From: Alphaproteobacteria bacterium
Lineage (GTDB): Bacteria > Pseudomonadota > Alphaproteobacteria > Micropepsales > Micropepsaceae
Reading direction: 5' to 3'
DNA length: 64,000 bases
Assembly: GCA_016792565.1 (NCBI GenBank)
Contig: JAEUMK010000098.1
Span: 1-64,000, forward strand
Both the position numbers and the translations under genes were made by a program. The notes below the pieces were generated by a model. It searched no databases. It was given only the letters and a program-made list of their open reading frames with translations, and was not told where the DNA came from. Shown here piece by piece: positions 26,992 to 37,671 of the stretch. How positions within the stretch are numbered: the first letter of the stretch is position 1; the number at the start of each line of letters is the position of its first letter.

Positions 26992-27321
26992 ATGGGCCTG
27001 ACAAAGATCACCGACCAGAGCTTTTCGGCCGACGTCCTGAAGTCGGACGAGCCGGTGCTGGTGGATTTCTGGGCCGAATGGTGCGGCCCCTGCCGCCAGA
27101 TCGCCCCGGCGCTCGAGGAAATCGCCAACGAGATGGGCGGCAAGGTGAAGATCGCCAAGCTGAACATCGACGAGAACCCGACGATCCCCGTGCAGTACGG
27201 CGTCAAGGGAATCCCGACGCTGATGATCTTCCACAAGGGCCAGGTCGCGGCGACCCGCGTCGGCGCGCTGCCCAAGAGCAAGATCAAGGAGTGGATCGAG
27301 TCGACCGTCGCGTCGTCCTGA
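26992..27321 (+). CDS. trxA: Thioredoxin
   Basis: A 109-residue cytosolic thioredoxin, reducing protein disulfides with electrons from thioredoxin reductase. Redox motif WCGPC has C31 and C34, preceded by VLVDFWAE; the cis-proline loop GIPTLMIF and the buried aspartate in LVDFWAEW are present. A GGAGG precedes the ATG. In the conserved backbone trxA follows addA and precedes folC; here about 9 kb of extra genes separate trxA from folC. A hairpin lies just downstream. Confidence 0.97.
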
Positions 27322-27344
27322 TCCCGCTAACGGATTCGCTCAGA

Positions 27345-27370
27345 CGAAGGGCCCCGCACGGGGCCCTTCG
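27345..27370 (+). terminator. Hairpin terminator between convergent genes
   Basis: A perfect 11-base stem (CGAAGGGCCCC / GGGGCCCTTCG) with a GCAC loop lies 23 bases after the trxA stop and 30 bases beyond the end of the converging membrane-protein gene. There is no long T-run on either side, so termination strength is uncertain. It could serve both strands. Confidence 0.6.
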
Positions 27371-27399
27371 CTTGCGTGCGGCAGGCTCGAGCCGGCCGC

Positions 27400-27693
27400 T
27401 CAGTCCTCGCCGCGGCGGCGGCGCAGTTCGTCTTCCATCAGCTCGACGATGCGGTCCGAGCCGGCCCGGATGTCGAGCAGGGTGAAGATCAGCCCGGTGC
27501 CGACCACAGCCAGGATGGCGCCCACCACGAAGCCGCCGAGCGCCCCCTGCCAGGGCTGCGCCATCACGCCGCCGGCATGGATCTCGCCCAGCACGGCGGC
27601 GTTCCAGCCGAACCAGGTGGCATAGGCGATGATGCCGACGAAGAAGAACCACGCGAACGCCTCGAACGCGCCGACGATCAGATTGCGGATCAT
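27400..27693 (-). CDS. Small two-helix membrane protein
   Basis: A 97-residue protein with two hydrophobic segments (about 8-28 and 47-70) and a charged C-terminal tail (RIVELMEDELRRRRGED), probably cytoplasmic. No family recognised. The ATG at 27693 is preferred over a GTG 15 bases upstream because GGGAGA lies a suitable distance before it. It is the last gene of a minus-strand group with tldD and tldE, 42 bases after tldE. Confidence 0.75.
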   Translation of the reverse strand: MIRNLIVGAFEAFAWFFFVGIIAYATWFGWNAAVLGEIHAGGVMAQPWQGALGGFVVGAILAVVGTGLIFTLLDIRAGSDRIVELMEDELRRRRGED

Positions 27694-27735
27694 GTCTCGA
27701 TCTCCCACGGCGCGCCCCGCGCCCCGGCCGCGAGG

Positions 27736-29058
27736 TTACAGCGTGAAGCGCAGTCCCGCCAGAAGGGCCCCGGGCAGGCGGACGCTGTCGAGGATGCGGC
27801 CCTCATAGGTGCCGGGGTCAAGCCACAGCGCGCGCTCGGCGGTCAGCGCCTCGAGCTCGCTGCCCAGCATGCGGTAGATCGTGTCGTCGAAGCGCATGAC
27901 GCTCAAGGGGGCGACGATCTCGCCGTTCTCGACCCAGAAGGTCGCGAAGCGCGTCATCCCGGTCAGCCGGCCGCTGCTGCGGTCGGAGAAGTTAAGGTAC
28001 CAGAGATTGGAGACATAGACGCCGGTGCCCAGCGCCTTCAGCACGTCGGCCTCGGGCAGTTCGCCCGCCGCCATGTCGAGCGAGGCCGGCACCTCGCCGC
28101 GCGAGGCGCCGTTGGTCGGCGCGCCGTATTCCGACGCCGAGCGCGGCGAGACGAGGCAGTCGCGATAGACGCCGCGCTCGATCAGCGTGACGGCGTCGGG
28201 CTTCAGGAAGCCCTCGCGCTGGAAGGCCGGCGCAGCCCCCAGCGCCGTCGCCTCGCGGAGCGTCACCCGCTCGTTCAGCCGCGCCCCGCCCTCGACCATG
28301 CGCAGGAAGATCGTCGCCCGCGTGCGATGGGCGGCGAGCCCGAAGCCGCCCCAGGACAGCATCCCCAAGATCTCGTTGAGCGCGGCGGGCGTCAGATAGG
28401 CGCGATACTCGCCCGGCGGCACGGTCATCGGCGGCCTCGCCAGCGCGGCGACGCGCGCCGCGGCCGTTTCGGCGGTCGCGGCGAAGGCCGCGCGGTCCCA
28501 GTCGAACCCGGCATGGGCGGTCTTCACCGCCTTGTCGCCGCCGGCATAGAAGCTCCAGTCGGCGTTGAAGCTGTGCGCCTCGTCCCAGTTGGTCTGCCCG
28601 GCGGCGTTGGCGAACCCCGTCCAGACCGGCCCGCTGGCGAAAAAGCCCACAAGGTCGCGGCCACGGCCGGCCTCCAGCACGGCATCGACGATCTCGGCCG
28701 GTTCCGGCATGACGCCGCCCATCCGCCGTTCGGAATTGCGCGGCGTCTCGTTGATCAGCAGATAGGGGTCCTCGGGCGAGGCGGCGACGGCGGTGCGCAA
28801 TTCGTCCAGCGCCCGCGCAATGCGGCCCGAATCCTCTCCGGCCCGGCCGGTCAGCGAGATCATCTCCTCGGCCTGGCGCCTGCCGTCGATCAGCGTCAGC
28901 GCCAGGTCGATCTCATGGACATGGCCGCCCTGGCGCACCGCGCTGGTGTTGAATCGGATGAAGGTGGAATCCTCGGCGCGGTAGTTGGCGAGGAAGCGCT
29001 CGCCGCCCTTCAGGCCGGCCGCGATCTGCCTCGTCACGGATTCGAAATGATCGCGCAT
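27736..29058 (-). CDS. TldE/PmbA-like metallopeptidase partner
   Basis: A 440-residue protein of the TldD/PmbA (U62) family, in the non-catalytic TldE role because it lacks the HExxxH motif carried by its neighbour. The family fold is visible in PPGEYRAYLTPAALNEIL, GASRGEVPASLDMAAGE and VSNLWYLNFSDRSSGRLTGMTRFATFWVENGEI near the C-terminus. TldD-TldE heterodimers degrade unfolded peptides and mature peptides such as microcin B17. The start at 29058 places MRDHFESVTRQI first; the upstream frame is low-complexity. It begins 4 bases after the tldD stop. Confidence 0.88.
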   Translation of the reverse strand: MRDHFESVTRQIAAGLKGGERFLANYRAEDSTFIRFNTSAVRQGGHVHEIDLALTLIDGRRQAEEMISLTGRAGEDSGRIARALDELRTAVAASPEDPYLLINETPRNSERRMGGVMPEPAEIVDAVLEAGRGRDLVGFFASGPVWTGFANAAGQTNWDEAHSFNADWSFYAGGDKAVKTAHAGFDWDRAAFAATAETAAARVAALARPPMTVPPGEYRAYLTPAALNEILGMLSWGGFGLAAHRTRATIFLRMVEGGARLNERVTLREATALGAAPAFQREGFLKPDAVTLIERGVYRDCLVSPRSASEYGAPTNGASRGEVPASLDMAAGELPEADVLKALGTGVYVSNLWYLNFSDRSSGRLTGMTRFATFWVENGEIVAPLSVMRFDDTIYRMLGSELEALTAERALWLDPGTYEGRILDSVRLPGALLAGLRFTL

Positions 29059-29062
29059 GGGC

Positions 29063-30493
29063 TCAGGCTCCACCGAAGACGTCGATCGCCGCGAACAGGC
29101 AGGCGGGCGTCGCGTGCCCGACCTTGACCGACTGGTTGGGTTCGCCCTTGCCGCAATAGGGCGTTCCCGAAACCTCCCAGGTCTCGCGGCCGCCCACTCC
29201 CTTAAGCGAGCGCCAGAAGGCGGCCGAGATGCCGCGATAGTTCGGGTTGCGCACGACGCGGCCGAGGCGGCCATCCCTGATCTCGCGGGCGTATTCGCAG
29301 CCGAACTGGAACTTGTTGCGGCTGTCGTCGATCGACCACGAGCGGTTGGTCTCCATGTAGACGCCGCGCTCGACGCGCCCGACCAGCGCCTCGAGCGAGC
29401 CTTCGCCGGGCTCCAGGTTGATGTTGGCCATGCGGTCGATGGCCGGGCGGTTCCAGGAGCAGGCGCGCTCGTTGGCGACCCCGGCGAGGCCGGCCCGGGC
29501 CTGGCTGGTGGCGCCGCCGAGCGGGCGGACGAGCAGGCCCTCGCGGATCAGGTATTCGCGGTCCGCGCGGCTGCCGTGATCGTCGTAGGCATAGGAGGCG
29601 ACCTCCTCGCCGATGCCCGGATCGAAGGTGACGTTCAGCAAAGGCGAGCCGTACCGGTAGGTCCCGAACATGTCGGGCGTCACGAAGCTGGTGCCGGCGT
29701 AGTTGCGCTCGTCGCCGAGGATGCGGTCGAGCTCCAGCGGGTGGCCGATCGACTCGTGCACCTGCAGCACCATCTGGTCGGGGGCGAGCACCACGTCCAT
29801 GGTGCCGGCCGGGCAGTTGGGCGCGTCGAGCAGTTCGATCGCCTCGCGGGCGATGCGTTCGGGGGCGGCGGCGAAGGCGAGCTGGTCCAGCACCTCGGCG
29901 CCGCCGGTGCGCATCGAGGATTCGCCGAAGGTGCGGCGCTGGCTTTCGCCCTGGGCGCTCGCCGCCGCCCACAGGGTGGGCTGCAGGTAGTGGAAGCGCT
30001 GGGCGATGCGGCCGCCGCCGGCGTCGGCCAGAAGCTGTTCCTTGTCGATCGCCCAGAAGGCGGCGCCCCAGTCGGAGATGCGTTCGTCGATCCGCATCCG
30101 GCGCGAGGCGTCGGCAAGCATGTCCAGGCGGTCGGCGAAGGCGAGCATCGCCCAGGGGCGCTGCTCCGGCCCGGCATAGGACGCCTCGCCCGCCAGCGCC
30201 GGGGCGCCCGGAATGCCGGGGACCATGCGGCCGGCCGTGACGGCGGCCATGTCGGCGGCGCGGGCGCAGGCCGCGGCGAGCCCAGCCTCGCCGAGGTCGC
30301 TGGTCGCGGCATAGCCGAGGCCACCGCCATGACGTATCGTCACCATAGCGCCGAAGCTTTCGGAGGCGCGGCGCGGCACCGGGGCGTCGCGCTCGACGCT
30401 CAGCCGCTCCTCTCGCCTGCGTTCGATTCGCAGGACGCAATGCTCGACCGCCGGCGCAACCCGGCGAAAACGGCGTTCGATGTCCTCAAACAC
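29063..30493 (-). CDS. TldD-like zinc metallopeptidase
   Basis: A 476-residue U62 family peptidase. The zinc site HESIGHPLELD (HExxxH, near residue 246) is complete and the C-terminal cysteine ligand is present in TPYCGKGEPNQSVKVG. It should form a heterodimer with the TldE-like protein encoded next and cleave small or unfolded peptides in the cytosol. Translation starts at GTG (30493) with AAGGAG about 11 bases upstream. It is divergent from a large TonB receptor with a palindrome between them. It may be a paralogue of the housekeeping tldD, which is not in this window. Confidence 0.9.
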   Translation of the reverse strand: MFEDIERRFRRVAPAVEHCVLRIERRREERLSVERDAPVPRRASESFGAMVTIRHGGGLGYAATSDLGEAGLAAACARAADMAAVTAGRMVPGIPGAPALAGEASYAGPEQRPWAMLAFADRLDMLADASRRMRIDERISDWGAAFWAIDKEQLLADAGGGRIAQRFHYLQPTLWAAASAQGESQRRTFGESSMRTGGAEVLDQLAFAAAPERIAREAIELLDAPNCPAGTMDVVLAPDQMVLQVHESIGHPLELDRILGDERNYAGTSFVTPDMFGTYRYGSPLLNVTFDPGIGEEVASYAYDDHGSRADREYLIREGLLVRPLGGATSQARAGLAGVANERACSWNRPAIDRMANINLEPGEGSLEALVGRVERGVYMETNRSWSIDDSRNKFQFGCEYAREIRDGRLGRVVRNPNYRGISAAFWRSLKGVGGRETWEVSGTPYCGKGEPNQSVKVGHATPACLFAAIDVFGGA

Positions 30494-30927
30494 GGGCGGT
30501 CGGCTCCTTGCGGCCGAAGGCTGTCCGGAACGGCTTGCCGGATCGTCGCCGGAGCGCGATTCGACCCTTCGCAGGCCCGGGACGGACTGTGGATTGACCC
30601 TCGGAAAGCCCTTTTAGCACAGTATGTTAACAAGATCTTACCAAGTCGGGGCCGGGACTGCCCCGGACGGGCTGCACAAATGCCACAGTCCGCCTTGATA
30701 GTGTCTCCGAAGCGTCAAACTGTTTGACCCCCCCGCCCCCGCTCAATAGCCTCCCGCGCAATGGCAAAGTCGGGCCGGACTCCAGCAATCGTTGCGGGGT
30801 CCGGTCCTTGCCGATTGCCGGACGACAAATGGCGTTGACCATGTTTTCCGGCGGCTCAATGGAGGCCGGCGCTTTGGCCAGGGTCAATCCGGAGAGATCA
30901 GCTGAACCTTTTCTTTGGGGGTATTCT
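30494..30927. other. Divergent intergenic region tldD / TonB receptor
   Basis: 434 bases without a convincing gene. It is more AT-rich than its surroundings, for example around 30610-30645, and carries a perfect 15-base palindrome at 30714-30728. It must hold the promoters for both divergent transcripts. A TTGACC at 30835-30840 is a possible -35 for the receptor, but its -10 is poor. Confidence 0.6.
30714..30728. promoter_or_regulatory. Perfect palindrome, candidate operator
   Basis: GTCAAAC-T-GTTTGAC is a perfect inverted repeat of 7-base arms around one base, roughly midway between the divergent tldD and TonB receptor starts. Each arm contains TTGAC, so it could overlap a -35 element. The binding protein is unknown. 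Confidence 0.45.
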
Positions 30928-33900
30928 GTGTCCACTACACTACTCGAACGGTCTCTGAAGGTCGCCCTGCTGGCCAGCGCCAGTGCCGCGATTCTTTCGA
31001 GCCCGGCTATCGCGCAAGACGTTCCGGCTCCCGTCGAGGCCGTCGGCGAGGAAGAGGTCGTCGTCACCGGTTCGCGCATCCAGCGCCGCGACTTCGTGGC
31101 GACCAGCCCGATCGCCACGGTGACGGGCGAGCAGGCTGTCCAGAACGCGGACATCACGCTCGACACCTACCTGAACACGCTGCCCCAGGCGAACCCGGCG
31201 GGCACGTCCACCTCGAACAACCCCGGCAACGGCGGCCAGTCGAACATCAACCTGCGCGGTCTCGGCTCGAACCGTAACCTCGTCCTGGTCGACGGACGCC
31301 GTCCGATGGTGTCGGGCACCGACCAGACGGTCGACCTCAACACGATCCCGGCCGCGCTGATCGAGCGCATCGAGATCATCACCGGCGGCGCCGGCGCGAC
31401 CTACGGCGCCGACGCGCTGGCGGGCGTCGTCAACATCATCCTGAAGAAGGATTTCGAGGGGATCGACTTCCGCTCGAACTACACCAACACGTCGAACTGG
31501 GACGGCGAGGAATACTCGTTCTCCGGCCTCGTCGGCGGCAATTTCGCCGACGGCAAGGGCAATGCGGTGATCTCGCTCGACCGCTCGTACCGCGAAGCGA
31601 TGACGAAGGGCCAGCGCGCCTTCGCCCGCTACGCGACCTCGACGACCGGCACCAACCCGACCGGCGGCTTCATCCACCAGTCGACGAACCCGATCGATCC
31701 GGCGGCAGTCAATGCCTTGTTCGGCCAGGCCTCCTACGGTTCGGTCGCCGCCGGCGGCGCGCTCAATACGCTGCTCGGCTTCAACTCCGACGGCACGCTG
31801 TTCTCGCGCGGTATCTTCAACAGCCCGATCGATGTCGAGAACTTCCGCTACGACATCAACTCGCCGGCCGCGCCGAACATCAACTATTTCCCGGACTTCT
31901 ACTCGTATAATTTCGACGAAGTGAACCTCCTGGTCCTTCCGTTCGAGCGCAAGAGCCTTACGGCGAAGGCGAACTACGAGATCGCGTCGGGCATCGAAGT
32001 GTTCGCGCAGGCGAGCTGGACCGAGAACAACGTCGCTTCGGGCGCCCTTGCCCCGACGCCGATCTCGCCGACGATCTATGCTCCCGGCACGGCCCCGAAC
32101 GGCCTCTCGGCCACCTCGGCGCTGGTTCTCGCCGGCGGCAACAACCGCGCCTCGGGCCTGATCGTTCCGGTCACCAACCCGTTCATCCCCGCCGACCTCG
32201 CGACGCTGCTCGCCTCGCGCACCGGCGACAACCCGCGCCTCGCCGGTGCGGGCGCCACGGAAGCCTTCGCCATCAACTGGCGCTCGCTGCCGCTGGGCCT
32301 GCGCCAGTCGAACACCGAGCAGACGGTCGTTCAGTACCTGATCGGCATCAACGCCGAGCTCGGCGCCGGCTGGAGCGCGCATGCCTATGCGTCGGAAGGC
32401 AAGACCGAGATCGACGTGCTCGCGACGGGCAATTTCGACATCACCCGCGGCCTGCAGCTGCTGGCGGCGGCGGACGGCGGCGCCTCGATCTGCGCCGGCG
32501 GCTTCAATCCGTTCGGCATCAACGGCCTGTCGGATGAGTGCATCCAGTACCTGCAGGTCGATGCGACCACGAGCACCGAGTTCACGCAGCAGATCTTCCA
32601 GGCCTATGCGACCGGCCCGATCGCGACCCTCGCGGCCGGCGACGTCGAAGTGGTGATCGGCGGCGAGCACCGCTACTTCGAGTACAATTTCAACCCGGGT
32701 ACGCTGAACTCGCCGGTGGCCGGCTTCAACACCGCCAATCCGGCCCGCGGCACCAACAGCTTCACCGACTTCTTCGCCGAAGTCCTCATCCCGGTCGTCG
32801 CCGACGCGGAATGGGCGAAGCGCCTGGAGTTCAGCCTCGGCTACCGTTACTCCGAGAGCCAGTTCATCGACGAGTTCAACGGCATCGAGGGCGATACCCG
32901 TTCCGACAGCGCCTACAAGATCGACATGCTGTGGGAGGTCAACGACATCGCCCTGGTGCGCGCGTCGTACCAGCGCGCCGTCCGCGCCCCGAACTTCGAC
33001 GAACTGTTCTCGGGCGGCAGCTCGTTCCCGCAGTTCTACGATCCCTGCTCGATCGGCACGGCCGCCCGCACCAATGGCGGCGCGGCGTTCGATGCGCTCT
33101 GCATCGGCACCGGCGTCTCGAACTATGCCTCGTTCGTCGCGTCGCCGGGCGGCCAGTTCCCGCTGGCGACCTCGGGCAACACGGATCTCAACCCCGAAAC
33201 CGCCGACACGTGGACGCTGGGCGTCGCGTTCTCGTCGCCGTGGGAAGACGATCCGATCTTCGGCAATGCGCGTCTGTCGATCGACTACTACAACATCAAG
33301 ATCAAGGACGTCATCGCCACCCCGGATCCGAACCTGTTCGTGGCGAACTGCTACAACTACTTCGGCAACAACCCGACGCTCGACCCGAACTTCTTCGACT
33401 GCCAGGCGGTCGCAGGAAGCCGTGCCGGCGGCGGCGGTCAGCTGCTCGGCCTCGTCTCGAACCCGCTCGATCCCAGCGGCAATTTCGAGGGCATCAACCA
33501 GGGCTACGTCCAGACGGACGGCATCGACGTCCAGTTCCAGATGGGCTTCGATCTGGAAGCGCTGGGCGCCGGCGAGGACAGCGGTTCGATCGCGCTCAAC
33601 ATCCTGATGAACTACCTGCTCTCCTACGAGGTGCAGGAACGTCCCGGCATCCCGGCGCTCGATTATGCCGGCACCGTGTCGTATTTCGGTCAGGGCCTGG
33701 GCACGAGCTTCCCCGAGCTGAAGATCACCACCAACCTCGCCTACACGATCGGCGACCTGACGCTCGACACCCGCATCCGCTACATCGATGCGATGGCGAA
33801 CCGCGCCTCGGTGCAGTTCCCGGGCGAGTCGTTCGCTGGCGTGCCGGCGACGTACTACATCGACCTCGCGGCCGAGTATCAGCTGATCGAGAATGTCGGC

Positions 33901-34035
33901 CTGCGGATCGGCGTGAACAACGTCACCGACCAGGATCCGCGGACCTACGCGCCGAACGTCCAGTCCGGCACCGATCCGTCGACCTACGACATCTACGGCC
34001 GCCGCTACTTCGCGCAGACCAAGATCCGCTTCTGA
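30928..34035 (+). CDS. TonB-dependent outer-membrane receptor
   Basis: A 1035-residue receptor for energised uptake across the outer membrane. A signal peptide ends near SSPAIAQ, then comes a TonB-box-like EEEVVVTGSRI, the plug domain (about 45-170: NINLRGLGSNRNLVLVDGRR, IERIEIITGGAGATYGADALAGVVNIILKK) and a long barrel ending VGLRIGVNNVTDQDPRTY and RRYFAQTKIRF with the terminal phenylalanine. The GTG at 30928 is chosen because the signal peptide begins there and GGGGG lies 7 bases upstream. The ligand is unknown; large receptors of this type often import peptides, glycans or iron chelates. A terminator follows. Confidence 0.94.
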   Translation: MSTTLLERSLKVALLASASAAILSSPAIAQDVPAPVEAVGEEEVVVTGSRIQRRDFVATSPIATVTGEQAVQNADITLDTYLNTLPQANPAGTSTSNNPGNGGQSNINLRGLGSNRNLVLVDGRRPMVSGTDQTVDLNTIPAALIERIEIITGGAGATYGADALAGVVNIILKKDFEGIDFRSNYTNTSNWDGEEYSFSGLVGGNFADGKGNAVISLDRSYREAMTKGQRAFARYATSTTGTNPTGGFIHQSTNPIDPAAVNALFGQASYGSVAAGGALNTLLGFNSDGTLFSRGIFNSPIDVENFRYDINSPAAPNINYFPDFYSYNFDEVNLLVLPFERKSLTAKANYEIASGIEVFAQASWTENNVASGALAPTPISPTIYAPGTAPNGLSATSALVLAGGNNRASGLIVPVTNPFIPADLATLLASRTGDNPRLAGAGATEAFAINWRSLPLGLRQSNTEQTVVQYLIGINAELGAGWSAHAYASEGKTEIDVLATGNFDITRGLQLLAAADGGASICAGGFNPFGINGLSDECIQYLQVDATTSTEFTQQIFQAYATGPIATLAAGDVEVVIGGEHRYFEYNFNPGTLNSPVAGFNTANPARGTNSFTDFFAEVLIPVVADAEWAKRLEFSLGYRYSESQFIDEFNGIEGDTRSDSAYKIDMLWEVNDIALVRASYQRAVRAPNFDELFSGGSSFPQFYDPCSIGTAARTNGGAAFDALCIGTGVSNYASFVASPGGQFPLATSGNTDLNPETADTWTLGVAFSSPWEDDPIFGNARLSIDYYNIKIKDVIATPDPNLFVANCYNYFGNNPTLDPNFFDCQAVAGSRAGGGGQLLGLVSNPLDPSGNFEGINQGYVQTDGIDVQFQMGFDLEALGAGEDSGSIALNILMNYLLSYEVQERPGIPALDYAGTVSYFGQGLGTSFPELKITTNLAYTIGDLTLDTRIRYIDAMANRASVQFPGESFAGVPATYYIDLAAEYQLIENVGLRIGVNNVTDQDPRTYAPNVQSGTDPSTYDIYGRRYFAQTKIRF

Positions 34036-34064
34036 TCTTACGCGCGAAACGCAACACGATCCGG

Positions 34065-34097
34065 GAAGGGCGGCGCCAAGCGCCGCCCTTCTTCTTT
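34065..34097 (+). terminator. Rho-independent terminator after the TonB receptor
   Basis: An 11-base perfect stem (GAAGGGCGGCG / CGCCGCCCTTC) with a CCAAG loop is followed by TTCTTT, 29 bases past the receptor stop. It separates the receptor from the TPR-2OG gene, although read-through is possible since the next gene starts only 30 bases later. Confidence 0.85.
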
Positions 34098-34126
34098 GGC
34101 GCATCCCCTTCTGCTATCGATCCGCC

Positions 34127-35944
34127 ATGGCGCTTCCCCCCGCCCCGACCGACGAAATGCTGCGCCGCGCCCTGACGGCGCTGCGCGGCGGCGCGGCGGC
34201 CGAGGGCGAACACCTCCTGCGGCAGGTTCTCGCCGCCGATCCGTCGCAGCCCGACGCGCTCCAGCTGCTCGGCCTCTCCGCCAGGACGGCGGGGCGGCTG
34301 TCCGAGGCGATCGATCTGTTCCGTCGCTCGCTCGCCGGACGCGACGGCCAGCCCCACGTCCACAACAATCTCGGCAATGCACTGAAGGCGGCCGGCGAGA
34401 TGGCGGAGGCCGAGCGGCACTACCGCATCGCGCTGGCCCAGAAGGCGGACTACGCCGACGCGGCGCTCAATCTCGGCATCCTCCTCATCGAAACCGCGCG
34501 CTTCGCCGACGCCCAGCGCCATCTGGACGACGCCGCGCGGCGCTTTCCCGCCAGCGCCCCGATCGCCGAGGCGCTGGCCATCGTCCGGCAGGATGTCGGC
34601 GACGGCGCAGGGGCCGTCGAGGCCGCCCGGCGCGCCACGGCGCTCGGTCCGGCGCGCCTCACCGCCTGGCACGGGCTCGGCCAGGCCGAACAGGCCGCCG
34701 GCGACTTCCCGGCGGCCGAGCAGGCCTTCCGCAAGGCCCTCGCCATCGACCGCCGCTCGGCGCCGAGCTGGGCTGGTCTCAGCAACGCCCTGCGCTGCCA
34801 GTTGCGCGACGCCGAGGCCGAGACCGCGCTGCGCCAGGCGCTGACGATCAACCCGCTCGACATCGCCGCGCATCGCAACCTGAACGCGATCCTCTGGGAG
34901 CACGGCAAGGCCGGCGAGCATCTCGCCAGCTATCGCGACGCCGCCGCCCGCCACCCGAACGAGATCGGGCTGCGCCTCGCCTTCGCCGAGGAGTTGCTGC
35001 AGGCCGGCCGGACCGACGAGGCCGAACGGCCCATCGCCGAGTGCCGGGCGCTCGCCCCCGACGATCCGCATGCCCTCGATCTCGCCGCCCGGCTGACGGC
35101 GCGGCGGGGCGATGCGGAGGCGGCGCTCGTCCTGCACCGGCGCGCGGCGGAAGCGGCGCCGGCCAGCGCCTTCGTCGTCAATCTCTGCGACACGCTGCTG
35201 CGGCTGGAGCGGGCCGACGAGGCGGACGCGGAATGCGTGCGGTTCCTGAAGACCGCGCCGGACGACCAGGCGATCCTCTCGCGCCAGCTTCTGGCGCTGC
35301 GGATGATGGGCGATCCGCGCTACCGCGAGCTCTTCGACCCCGACACCATGACCGCGTGCCTCGACGTGGCGCCGCCGGACGGGCTGGACGCCGGGACCTT
35401 CCTCGAGCGCCTGGCCGCGCACCTAAGGGCGCTGCACACCTCGACGACCCAGCCGATCGACCAGACGCTCGAGGGCGGGACGCAGACCTTCGGCCACCTC
35501 TTCGCCGTCGACCGCTCGCCGATCGTCGGCGCGCTGCGGGCGGCGATTCAGACTTCGGTCGAGGGTTTCGTCGCCGGCCTGCCCGACGATACGCGCCACC
35601 CCTTCTTCCGGCGGAAATCGCCTTCGATCCGTTTCACCGGATCGTGGTCGGTGCGGCTGCATGCGCACGGCTTCCACACCAACCACTACCACCCCAAGGG
35701 CTGGATCAGTTCGGCCTTCTATGTGGTCGTCCCGCCCGAGGCGGACGACGAGACGGCGCGGCCGGGCTGGTTCACCTTCGGCCAGTCCAACATGGCGCTT
35801 GGGGCCAGCGACGTGGTGGAGCGCTACGTCAAGCCGCAGCCCGGCAAGCTGGTGCTGTTTCCATCCTATGTCTGGCATGGCACGGTGCCGTTCACTAGAA
35901 GCGCCGAGCGGATGACCGTCGCCTTCGATGCGGCCCCTCTCTGA
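34127..35944 (+). CDS. TPR protein fused to a putative 2OG-Fe(II) oxygenase
   Basis: A 605-residue protein. Residues 1 to about 400 are helical TPR repeats (for example PHVHNNLGNALKAAGEMAEAERHYRIAL). The C-terminal part from about 470 resembles the putative 2OG-Fe(II) oxygenase family PF13759: SWSVRLHAHGFHTNHYHPKGWISSAFYV and KPQPGKLVLFPSYVWHGTVPF supply the histidines and the basic residue expected for iron and 2-oxoglutarate. The TPRs likely present a protein or peptide for hydroxylation. No signal peptide is seen, so it is cytosolic. It directly follows a TonB receptor gene, an arrangement I recall from sphingomonads and Caulobacter relatives. Confidence 0.85.
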   Translation: MALPPAPTDEMLRRALTALRGGAAAEGEHLLRQVLAADPSQPDALQLLGLSARTAGRLSEAIDLFRRSLAGRDGQPHVHNNLGNALKAAGEMAEAERHYRIALAQKADYADAALNLGILLIETARFADAQRHLDDAARRFPASAPIAEALAIVRQDVGDGAGAVEAARRATALGPARLTAWHGLGQAEQAAGDFPAAEQAFRKALAIDRRSAPSWAGLSNALRCQLRDAEAETALRQALTINPLDIAAHRNLNAILWEHGKAGEHLASYRDAAARHPNEIGLRLAFAEELLQAGRTDEAERPIAECRALAPDDPHALDLAARLTARRGDAEAALVLHRRAAEAAPASAFVVNLCDTLLRLERADEADAECVRFLKTAPDDQAILSRQLLALRMMGDPRYRELFDPDTMTACLDVAPPDGLDAGTFLERLAAHLRALHTSTTQPIDQTLEGGTQTFGHLFAVDRSPIVGALRAAIQTSVEGFVAGLPDDTRHPFFRRKSPSIRFTGSWSVRLHAHGFHTNHYHPKGWISSAFYVVVPPEADDETARPGWFTFGQSNMALGASDVVERYVKPQPGKLVLFPSYVWHGTVPFTRSAERMTVAFDAAPL

Positions 35945-35967
35945 CAGCGGAACGAGAAGCAGACCGA

Positions 35968-36318
35968 ATGCCCGTCTTCGCCGCCTATACTCTGGTCTTC
36001 GTGCGCGACATGCAGCGCGCCGTCGCGTTCTATCGCGACGCCCTGGGCATGACCGTGCGCATGGCGACGCCCGCCTGGAGCGAACTCGAGATCGCCGGGG
36101 CGACGGTCGCGCTGCATTCGGGGCGCGAAGGCAACGCCGCGCAGGAAATCCCGCTCGGCTTCAAGGTGCTGAACATCGACGCCGTCGCCAATGCGGTGGT
36201 GGATGCGGGCGGCTTCATCCACGCCCCCAAGCGCCAGGCGCAGGGCGAGCCCGCCATCGTCAAGGCGGGCGACCCCGACGGGAACGTCTTCTTCCTGTCG
36301 GAAGGACCGGGCGCCTAG
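35968..36318 (+). CDS. VOC family (glyoxalase-like) protein
   Basis: A 116-residue single vicinal-oxygen-chelate module. YTLVFVRDMQRAVAFYRDALGMTVR opens it, and AGDPDGNVFFLSEGP closes it with the conserved metal-site region. It could be a lyase, dioxygenase or binding protein; the substrate is not readable. It begins 23 bases after the TPR-2OG stop with GAGAAG upstream and is probably cotranscribed. It converges on folC. Confidence 0.88.
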   Translation: MPVFAAYTLVFVRDMQRAVAFYRDALGMTVRMATPAWSELEIAGATVALHSGREGNAAQEIPLGFKVLNIDAVANAVVDAGGFIHAPKRQAQGEPAIVKAGDPDGNVFFLSEGPGA

Positions 36319-36354: not shown

Positions 36355-37671
36355 CTAGCCGTTCTGGGCGAGGATGCGGCCCGCCAGATAGAGCGAGCCG
36401 CAGATCAGGATACGCGGCGGCGTCTCGTCGTCGTCGAGCGAGACACGGGCGGTGATCTGATCGAGCGCATCGCCGATGTCCTCGGCCGGATCGGCCTTGA
36501 GACCGGCCGAGCGCGCCGCGTCGTAGAGCGCCCCGGCGCCCAGCGCATTGGGCTCGCCCGGAATGGTCAGCGTCGAGACATGGCGCGCGAGGCCCCGGAA
36601 ATGGACGAAGAACCCCGCCGGGTCCTTGGTGCTCAGCATGCCGACGATCAGGTAGAGAGGACGCGGGCGCTTCTCCTCAAGATCGGCGAGGGTCTCGGCG
36701 ATGGCGGCGGCGGCGTGCGGATTGTGCCCGCCGTCGAGCCAGATCTCGGCGCCCTCGGGGGCATCCTCCACCAGCGGCCCGTAGGTGAGGCGCTGCATGC
36801 GCGCCGGCCAGGCGACATTCGCAAGACCCGTCTCGATCGCCTGTTCGGACACGGCGAAACGGTCCTGGGCGCGCAGCGCGGCGATGGCGGTCGCGGCATT
36901 GGCGATCTGGTGCACGCCGACCAGCCGGGGCGGCGGCAGATCGAGCACGCCCTGACCATCCTGGAAGACGATCCGCCCGTGTTCCTCGTGCGCCGAGAAG
37001 TCGCGGCCCCAGGCGATGACCGGCGCATCGACCCGATTGGCCGCCGCTTCGATCACCGCAAGAGCGGCCGCGTCCTGAGGACCGACGACGAGCGGGCGGC
37101 CTCGCTTGGCGATGCCGGCCTTCTCGGCGGCGATCAGTTCGATCGTATCGCCCAGGAAGTGCTGATGGTCGAGACCGACCGGGGTAATGACCGAGACGAG
37201 CGGCGAGTCGATCACGTTGGTCGCGTCCAGCACGCCGCCGAGGCCGACCTCGAGCACCAGGGCATCGGCCGGCACCCGCGCGAAGGCGAGCAACGCCGCC
37301 GCCGTGGTGATCTCGAAGAAGGTGATCGCCATGCCGTCCGCAGCGCGCTCGCATTCGTCGAGCAGGATCTGCAGCGCGTCCTCGCTGATCAACGTGCCGG
37401 CAAGGCGGATGCGTTCATGGAAGCGCACCAAATGCGGCGACGTGTAGACATGGACCTTGAGGCCCGCCGCTTCCAGGATGGCGCGCAGCGTGGCGCAGGT
37501 CGAGCCTTTGCCGTTGGTGCCGGCGACGTGGAAGACCGGCGGCAGGCGCCGTTCGGGGTGGCCAAGCCGGACCAGCAGCGCACGCATACGGTCGAGCGAG
37601 AGGTCGATCGCCTTGGGATGAAGGCGCATCAGCCGTTCGAGGATCGCGTCGCTGGAGGTCGTGGAACTCAT
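36355..37671 (-). CDS. folC: Bifunctional folylpolyglutamate synthase / dihydrofolate synthase
   Basis: A 438-residue Mur-ligase-like enzyme adding glutamate to dihydropteroate and folates. P-loop [13 protein letters not shown] is at about 48-60, the Omega loop [13 protein letters not shown] follows, and [26 protein letters not shown] and [11 protein letters not shown] (glutamate ligase domain) are all present. It ends the pyrF-trpF-trpB-trpA-accD-folC run and overlaps accD by four bases. The accD-folC adjacency is widespread in proteobacteria. Confidence 0.96.

Follow-up and report, generated by a model that had tools for sequence, protein, structure and literature searches.

Most bacteria and archaea encode the TldD/TldE (PmbA) pair, whose physiological role has been called elusive (PMC5810440). 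In E. coli, Cys454 of TldD is a zinc ligand, and a narrow channel of the complex admits unfolded peptides, which are trimmed from their N-terminal end largely irrespective of sequence (PMC5810440). A related pair is encoded in the window, i.e., the complete stretch of 64,000 nucleotides of alphaproteobacterial DNA (contig JAEUMK010000098.1) analyzed here, and shares with the E. coli proteins the HExxxH motif, the third-ligand cysteine of a CGK motif, the inactive TldE partner and the adjacency of both genes. However, it is approximately 25–30% identical to the E. coli pair, scores far below the curated TldD and PmbA cut-offs, and has an Opp and receptor gene context. Astexin-type lasso peptide clusters (PMC9266682) also place a TonB receptor next to a dedicated peptidase in alphaproteobacteria, but this peptidase is of another family, and the block in the window lacks a precursor, a cyclase, GntR and FecI/FecR. 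Neither a prolyl-oligopeptidase-type isopeptidase nor a FecI/FecR pair was found among the gene contents of the window and the congeners. Opp/Dpp importers are recognizable in the ancestral neighbors of the block (three SBP_bac_5 proteins, OppDF with an oligo_HPY domain, and OppC), but are here joined to a TonB receptor, SppA, TldD/TldE, and TPR-fused hydroxylases. The latter resemble known TPR-AspH and TPR-2OG (PF13759) proteins in their domain architecture and conserved histidines. We know of no function for such proteins beside TonB receptors, and none is reported in the open-access literature that was searched. That literature, which covered TldD together with TonB receptors, oligopeptide transport, TPR enzymes, and hydroxylases, does not describe the locus; its parts are known, and a description of their combination was not found there.

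The block spans positions 27400–36318 and consists of six genes between trxA and folC, with hyp97, tldE, and tldD followed by the receptor, TPR-2OG oxygenase, and VOC genes (Table 1). A preceding sequence-only reading had listed five of them, all of which are real and were placed correctly; the sixth, hyp97, is added here and is part of the block in each of the four congeners. It has no Pfam match and adjoins TldE in each of these genomes (G001–G004; 70–84% identity). As also read from the sequence, the TldD-like protein carries a complete HExxxH motif (HESIGH at residue 246), which is absent from the TldE-like protein encoded next to it, and the TonB receptor has 1,035 residues, with both Plug and beta-barrel domains scoring above the cut-off. 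Among congeners, identities are 71–81% for TldD, 75–79% for TldE, and 79–90% for the VOC protein.

Table 1. Features of the block and its flanks (positions in the window).
Feature	Position	Strand	Description	Evidence or remark
trxA	26992..27321	+	Left flank of insertion	NCBIfam TrxA, 143 bits
hyp97	27400..27693	-	97-aa membrane-like protein	First gene of moved block
TldE-like, second family	27736..29058	-	440 aa	PF19289, 3.4e-20
TldD-like catalytic subunit, second family	29063..30493	-	476 aa	PF01523 and PF19289; HExxxH and CGK cysteine
Palindrome GTCAAACTGTTTGAC	30714..30728	.	tldD-receptor gap	Putative operator
TonB-dependent receptor	30928..34035	+	GTG start, 1035 aa	Plug 2.8e-20, barrel 2e-25
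TPR repeats and 2OG-Fe(II) oxygenase domain	34127..35944	+	605 aa	PF13759, 1.8e-23; 83.3 bits vs. cut-off 27
VOC (glyoxalase-fold) protein	35968..36318	+	116 aa	PF00903, 2e-10; last gene of block
folC	36355..37671	-	Right flank of insertion	Directly after trxA in G002, G003, G004

The genus set comprises the window genome (G000) and the four congeners (n = 5), one of which (G003) is strain SO-S41, a forest-soil isolate in culture that is thought to represent order-level novelty (PMC8297455). That the block is an insertion, as had been proposed, is borne out by three of the four congeners (G002, G003, and G004), which have an intact addA-trxA-folC-accD arrangement without insert; in G001 the flanks of folC are rearranged. 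A terminator-like stem of trxA (about 27344–27372) still adjoins this gene at the left flank. The block itself, with variable receptor and oxygenase, is present in all four congeners beside OppA-type binding proteins. The order receptor-TldD-TldE-hyp97 is kept in each of them. Next to TldE-hyp97 come three binding proteins of the OppA type (SBP_bac_5) and then OppDF, OppC, and OppB. Where the contigs can be read, SppA (peptidase S49) lies beyond the VOC gene, directly in G001 and G004 and with approximately 3.7 kb between in G003 (the G004 locus is spread over a pair of contigs, and that of G002 breaks off inside the receptor gene). Pfam matches of these neighbors were SBP_bac_5, oligo_HPY, OppC_N, and Peptidase_S49. 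In the window genome, contig C91 carries the Opp genes together with the binding proteins, and SppA directly abuts binding protein 3; the block is absent there and found instead between trxA and folC, which demonstrates that it was relocated as a single unit, from hyp97 to VOC. In the ancestor of the genus, TldD2/E2 (the second TldD/TldE family described below), hyp97, the TonB receptor, and VOC lay between the OppA(x3)-DF-C-B importer and SppA. A chimeric assembly is unlikely to explain the relocation, as it would need to mimic the pattern at two places. The linkage of binding proteins, permeases, and ATPase to the block is seen in the congeners. In the window genome the move has taken the block away from Opp, so that co-transcription is not required. 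At the SppA-binding protein junction of C91, where the block is lacking, direct repeats of approximately 28 bp occur in three to four copies (L159, 2096–2237); they are copies of the 3' end of the binding-protein gene.

The genes co-occur across the genus: TldD and the TonB receptor are adjacent in all five genomes, and VOC is part of the block in all four in which this could be tested. The exact five-gene set of the sequence-only reading, in contrast, is confined to the window genome.

The TldD-like protein was aligned to the E. coli TldD structure 5nj5, with its third-ligand cysteine matching the CGK motif of 5nj5. All 88 TldD2 relatives carry both HExxxH and the CGK cysteine, whereas 80 of 81 TldE2 proteins lack HExxxH and the combined set is absent from TldE2; the TldD2 pattern agrees with the ligands reported for the E. 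coli enzyme (PMC5810440). The window pair reaches 67.6 of the 513 bits required by the curated NCBIfam model for TldD and 19.1 of 438 bits for PmbA. Three TldD/PmbA N-terminal domains were detected in the window genome in total. A copy on contig C15 scores above the NCBI TldD cut-off (528.8 bits), and one on contig C104 has PmbA as best match, yet below its cut-off (333.3/438 bits). The pair in the window is therefore an additional copy and not, as had been considered, the sole housekeeping one, the other copies being the TldD on C15 and the PmbA-like protein on C104. Homologs with 50–62% identity exist in Planctomycetota, Deltaproteobacteria, Burkholderiales, Pseudomonas, and others, almost always as an adjacent TldD-TldE gene pair. 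Judged by sequence comparison, TldD2/E2 is a widespread second TldD/TldE family with a predicted peptidase role.

Among 80 named TldD2/E2 loci there was no common neighbor besides the pair itself, and Opp genes lay beside TldE2 in a single locus (L065) and 7 kb off in another (L063). In these loci a TonB receptor was near the pair in the two congeners included and, at a distance only, in one Pseudomonas, according to a Plug profile that was made from few receptors and that distant ones may escape. Beyond the order, TldD2/E2 had no consistent TonB receptor, oxygenase, or VOC neighbors, and within it TldD2 was found in 9 of the 96 surveyed genomes (one family, seven genera). In L065 (8900–16421), from a distant Pseudomonadota MAG, genes for an OppA-like protein, OppB, and OppC directly follow TldD2-TldE2.

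The receptor next to tldD occupies a fixed slot, and the protein in it is exchangeable. Receptor identity among congeners is only about 27–35%. In a tree of 58 receptors, a quick tree in which the window branch is long, the receptors of the window, G001, and G003 grouped with 19 SppA-linked receptors of other genera (support 99), those of G002 and G004 fell into another clade, and 16 other receptors of the window genome lay apart from the window set. In G001 and G003 the receptor gene also has the opposite orientation. Adjacency to TldD was kept while the receptor clade changed, which indicates that the slot is retained and the receptor replaceable. In genus g2 (G021 and G018) other receptors adjoin TldD2/E2. 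The receptor gene of G021 is situated between tldD2 and tldE2 on the opposite strand (L121, 8661–15679).

The gap between tldD and the receptor gene holds the perfect palindrome GTCAAACNGTTTGAC. G000, G002, and G004, which represent three species, have a single copy each, always at this place (30714–30728 in the window, 8023–8037 in L117, and 2641–2655 in L119). The shared palindrome region pointed out earlier is thus unique in the window genome and recurs at the same location in two other species. A reversed control pattern had zero matches, and the perfect palindrome is absent from G001 and G003, in which the receptor gene runs the other way. Its surroundings are the sole stretch of the gap that aligns G000 with G002 and G004. 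Within GTCAAACTGTTTGAC lies TTGACC, a -35-like element of the receptor gene, and by eye the arrangement TTGACC-17 bp-TAGCYT is kept in the three species; a sigma-70 consensus scan of the gap gave no match, and Rfam none close to a gathering score. Conservation of the palindrome despite a different receptor clade in G002 and G004 favors a true operator for both the tldD and the receptor transcripts, and such a role is likely. One unlikely scenario that would accommodate these patterns is a mobile peptide system with a constant slot, beside TldD/TldE and the conserved operator, in which one TonB receptor is swapped for another; it would include, and this is part of the same unlikely scenario, a TPR-fused hydroxylase or sulfotransferase for each receptor that modifies the receptor or its ligand. 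A cell could then alter the peptides taken up while one degradation module is retained.

The sequence-only reading had left open peptide maturation, uptake, or modification. Of these, uptake followed by breakdown is favored by the ancestral Opp/SppA context: given a TonB receptor, peptide-binding proteins of the periplasm, and Opp as ancestral neighbors, it is the most economical reading, and the original location next to the Opp importer and SppA adds weight to the peptide theme. We regard it as moderately probable that the block is one half, the one that moved, of a locus for the uptake and breakdown of peptides. Peptides would be the substrate and import the direction of transport: the receptor would carry them through the outer membrane, transport into the cytoplasm would be the task of the binding proteins and Opp, and TldD/TldE would trim them from the N-terminus in the way known for unfolded peptides and E. 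coli TldD/E. Either the peptides or a partner protein might be hydroxylated by the TPR-2OG (or TPR-AspH) enzyme, and the palindromic operator would govern both tldD and the receptor gene. The VOC protein has no evident place in this scheme. This counts against the reading, and so do the rarity of TldD2/E2 in the order, its occurrence mostly without Opp or receptor neighbors beyond it, the variation of receptor clade and oxygenase between congeners, and the separation of the block from Opp in the window genome.

Maturation of a peptide found no support. The 434-bp tldD-receptor gap is the sole intergenic gap of the block with room for a precursor ORF, and the small ORFs in it lack equivalents in both G002 and G004; conserved small ORFs, which the sequence-only reading had proposed to look for nearby, were thus not found in this gap of G000, G002, and G004. 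A RiPP-type system, in which the TPR-2OG protein would hydroxylate a precursor that TldD/TldE would then trim and the receptor recapture, comparable to lasso peptides and isopeptidases, has parallels in the removal of the microcin B17 leader by TldD/E (PMC5810440) and in the TonB transporters of lasso clusters with isopeptidase (PMC9266682). It is nevertheless decidedly unlikely given the missing precursor, the lack of a peptide exporter, a cyclase, and a sigma/anti-sigma pair in the block, and a hydroxylase that is not conserved.

Alternatively, the neighborhood could be historical, with TldD2/E2 acting as a general peptidase, on its own or together with Opp, and the receptor, TPR hydroxylase, and VOC genes being unrelated neighbors and chance fellow movers. 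The pair occurs in many phyla without such neighbors, receptor and oxygenase are variable, and receptor/TPR-hydroxylase loci by SppA usually lack TldDE throughout the order, so that this explanation deserves some weight; it is still rather doubtful, as chance would have to account for a TldD-receptor adjacency in five of five genomes despite another receptor clade in two of them and another strand in two more, for the different receptors adjoining TldD/E in G021 and G018, for relocation en bloc, and for the shared palindrome. The link of TldD2/E2 to a TonB receptor, Opp, and SppA in one lineage offers a concrete handle on the role of TldD/TldE, which is open to testing in a cultured strain of the genus with complete genome (SO-S41, AP024629.1).

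The oxygenase seen in the window is not a conserved part of the locus; like the receptor, it is exchangeable. A TPR-2OG protein is encoded in the window, a TPR-aspartyl/asparaginyl hydroxylase (TPR-AspH) in G001 and G003, and neither in G004, and the window genome has zero PF05118 genes. In the window protein, H517, H520, H522, H584, and R595 are invariant among 38 relatives. A general linkage of PF13759 to receptors was dropped, since only the long TPR-fused form is linked (a receptor within 700 bp in 8 of 40, vs. 0 of 20 for the short form). Many TPR-2OG genes of the order belong to a separate syntenic group by a ComM-like (Mg-chelatase type) gene without receptor (L169, L171, L176, L187, and others).

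Across the order, 40 SppA-adjacent loci of relatives were examined. In genus g6 a TonB receptor lies within about 16 kb of SppA in 16 of 20 loci, and a TPR-AspH gene is present in eight of the 20; even at 17 receptors per Mb the chance estimate for 16/20 is 1.8e-5, for genomes that are related and not independent. Genus g5 contributed four loci with SppA and, further on, receptor - TPR-AspH - PF13640 oxygenase - TPR-2OG, in genus g4 SppA adjoins Opp and binding proteins, and the SppA loci of genus g2 lack these neighbors. In the outgroups G016 and G111, TldD-TldE and binding proteins occur without receptor, together with SppA in the former and Opp genes in the latter. The survey suggests that a receptor and a TPR-modifying enzyme near SppA/Opp are an order-wide theme, usually without TldDE, and that TldD2/E2 joined this theme in the genus of the window.

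This recurrence of TPR-2OG, TPR-AspH, and TPR-sulfotransferase genes by TonB receptors would also suit a modification of the receptor or its partner by the TPR-fused enzymes, with TldD/TldE as a quality-control peptidase only. These enzymes, including the TPR-2OG protein of the window, have no evident signal peptide, and would thus meet the receptor before its export. As the argument is one of adjacency and the G004 block has a receptor and no such enzyme, we consider this very unlikely. The locus also places TPR-fused hydroxylases beside outer-membrane receptors, which provides a setting in which to seek their substrate. TPR-fused sulfotransferases were observed beside TPR-AspH and TPR-2OG genes in two loci (L199, 4286–5920, and L206, 2664–4202), the second of which also contains a TonB receptor.
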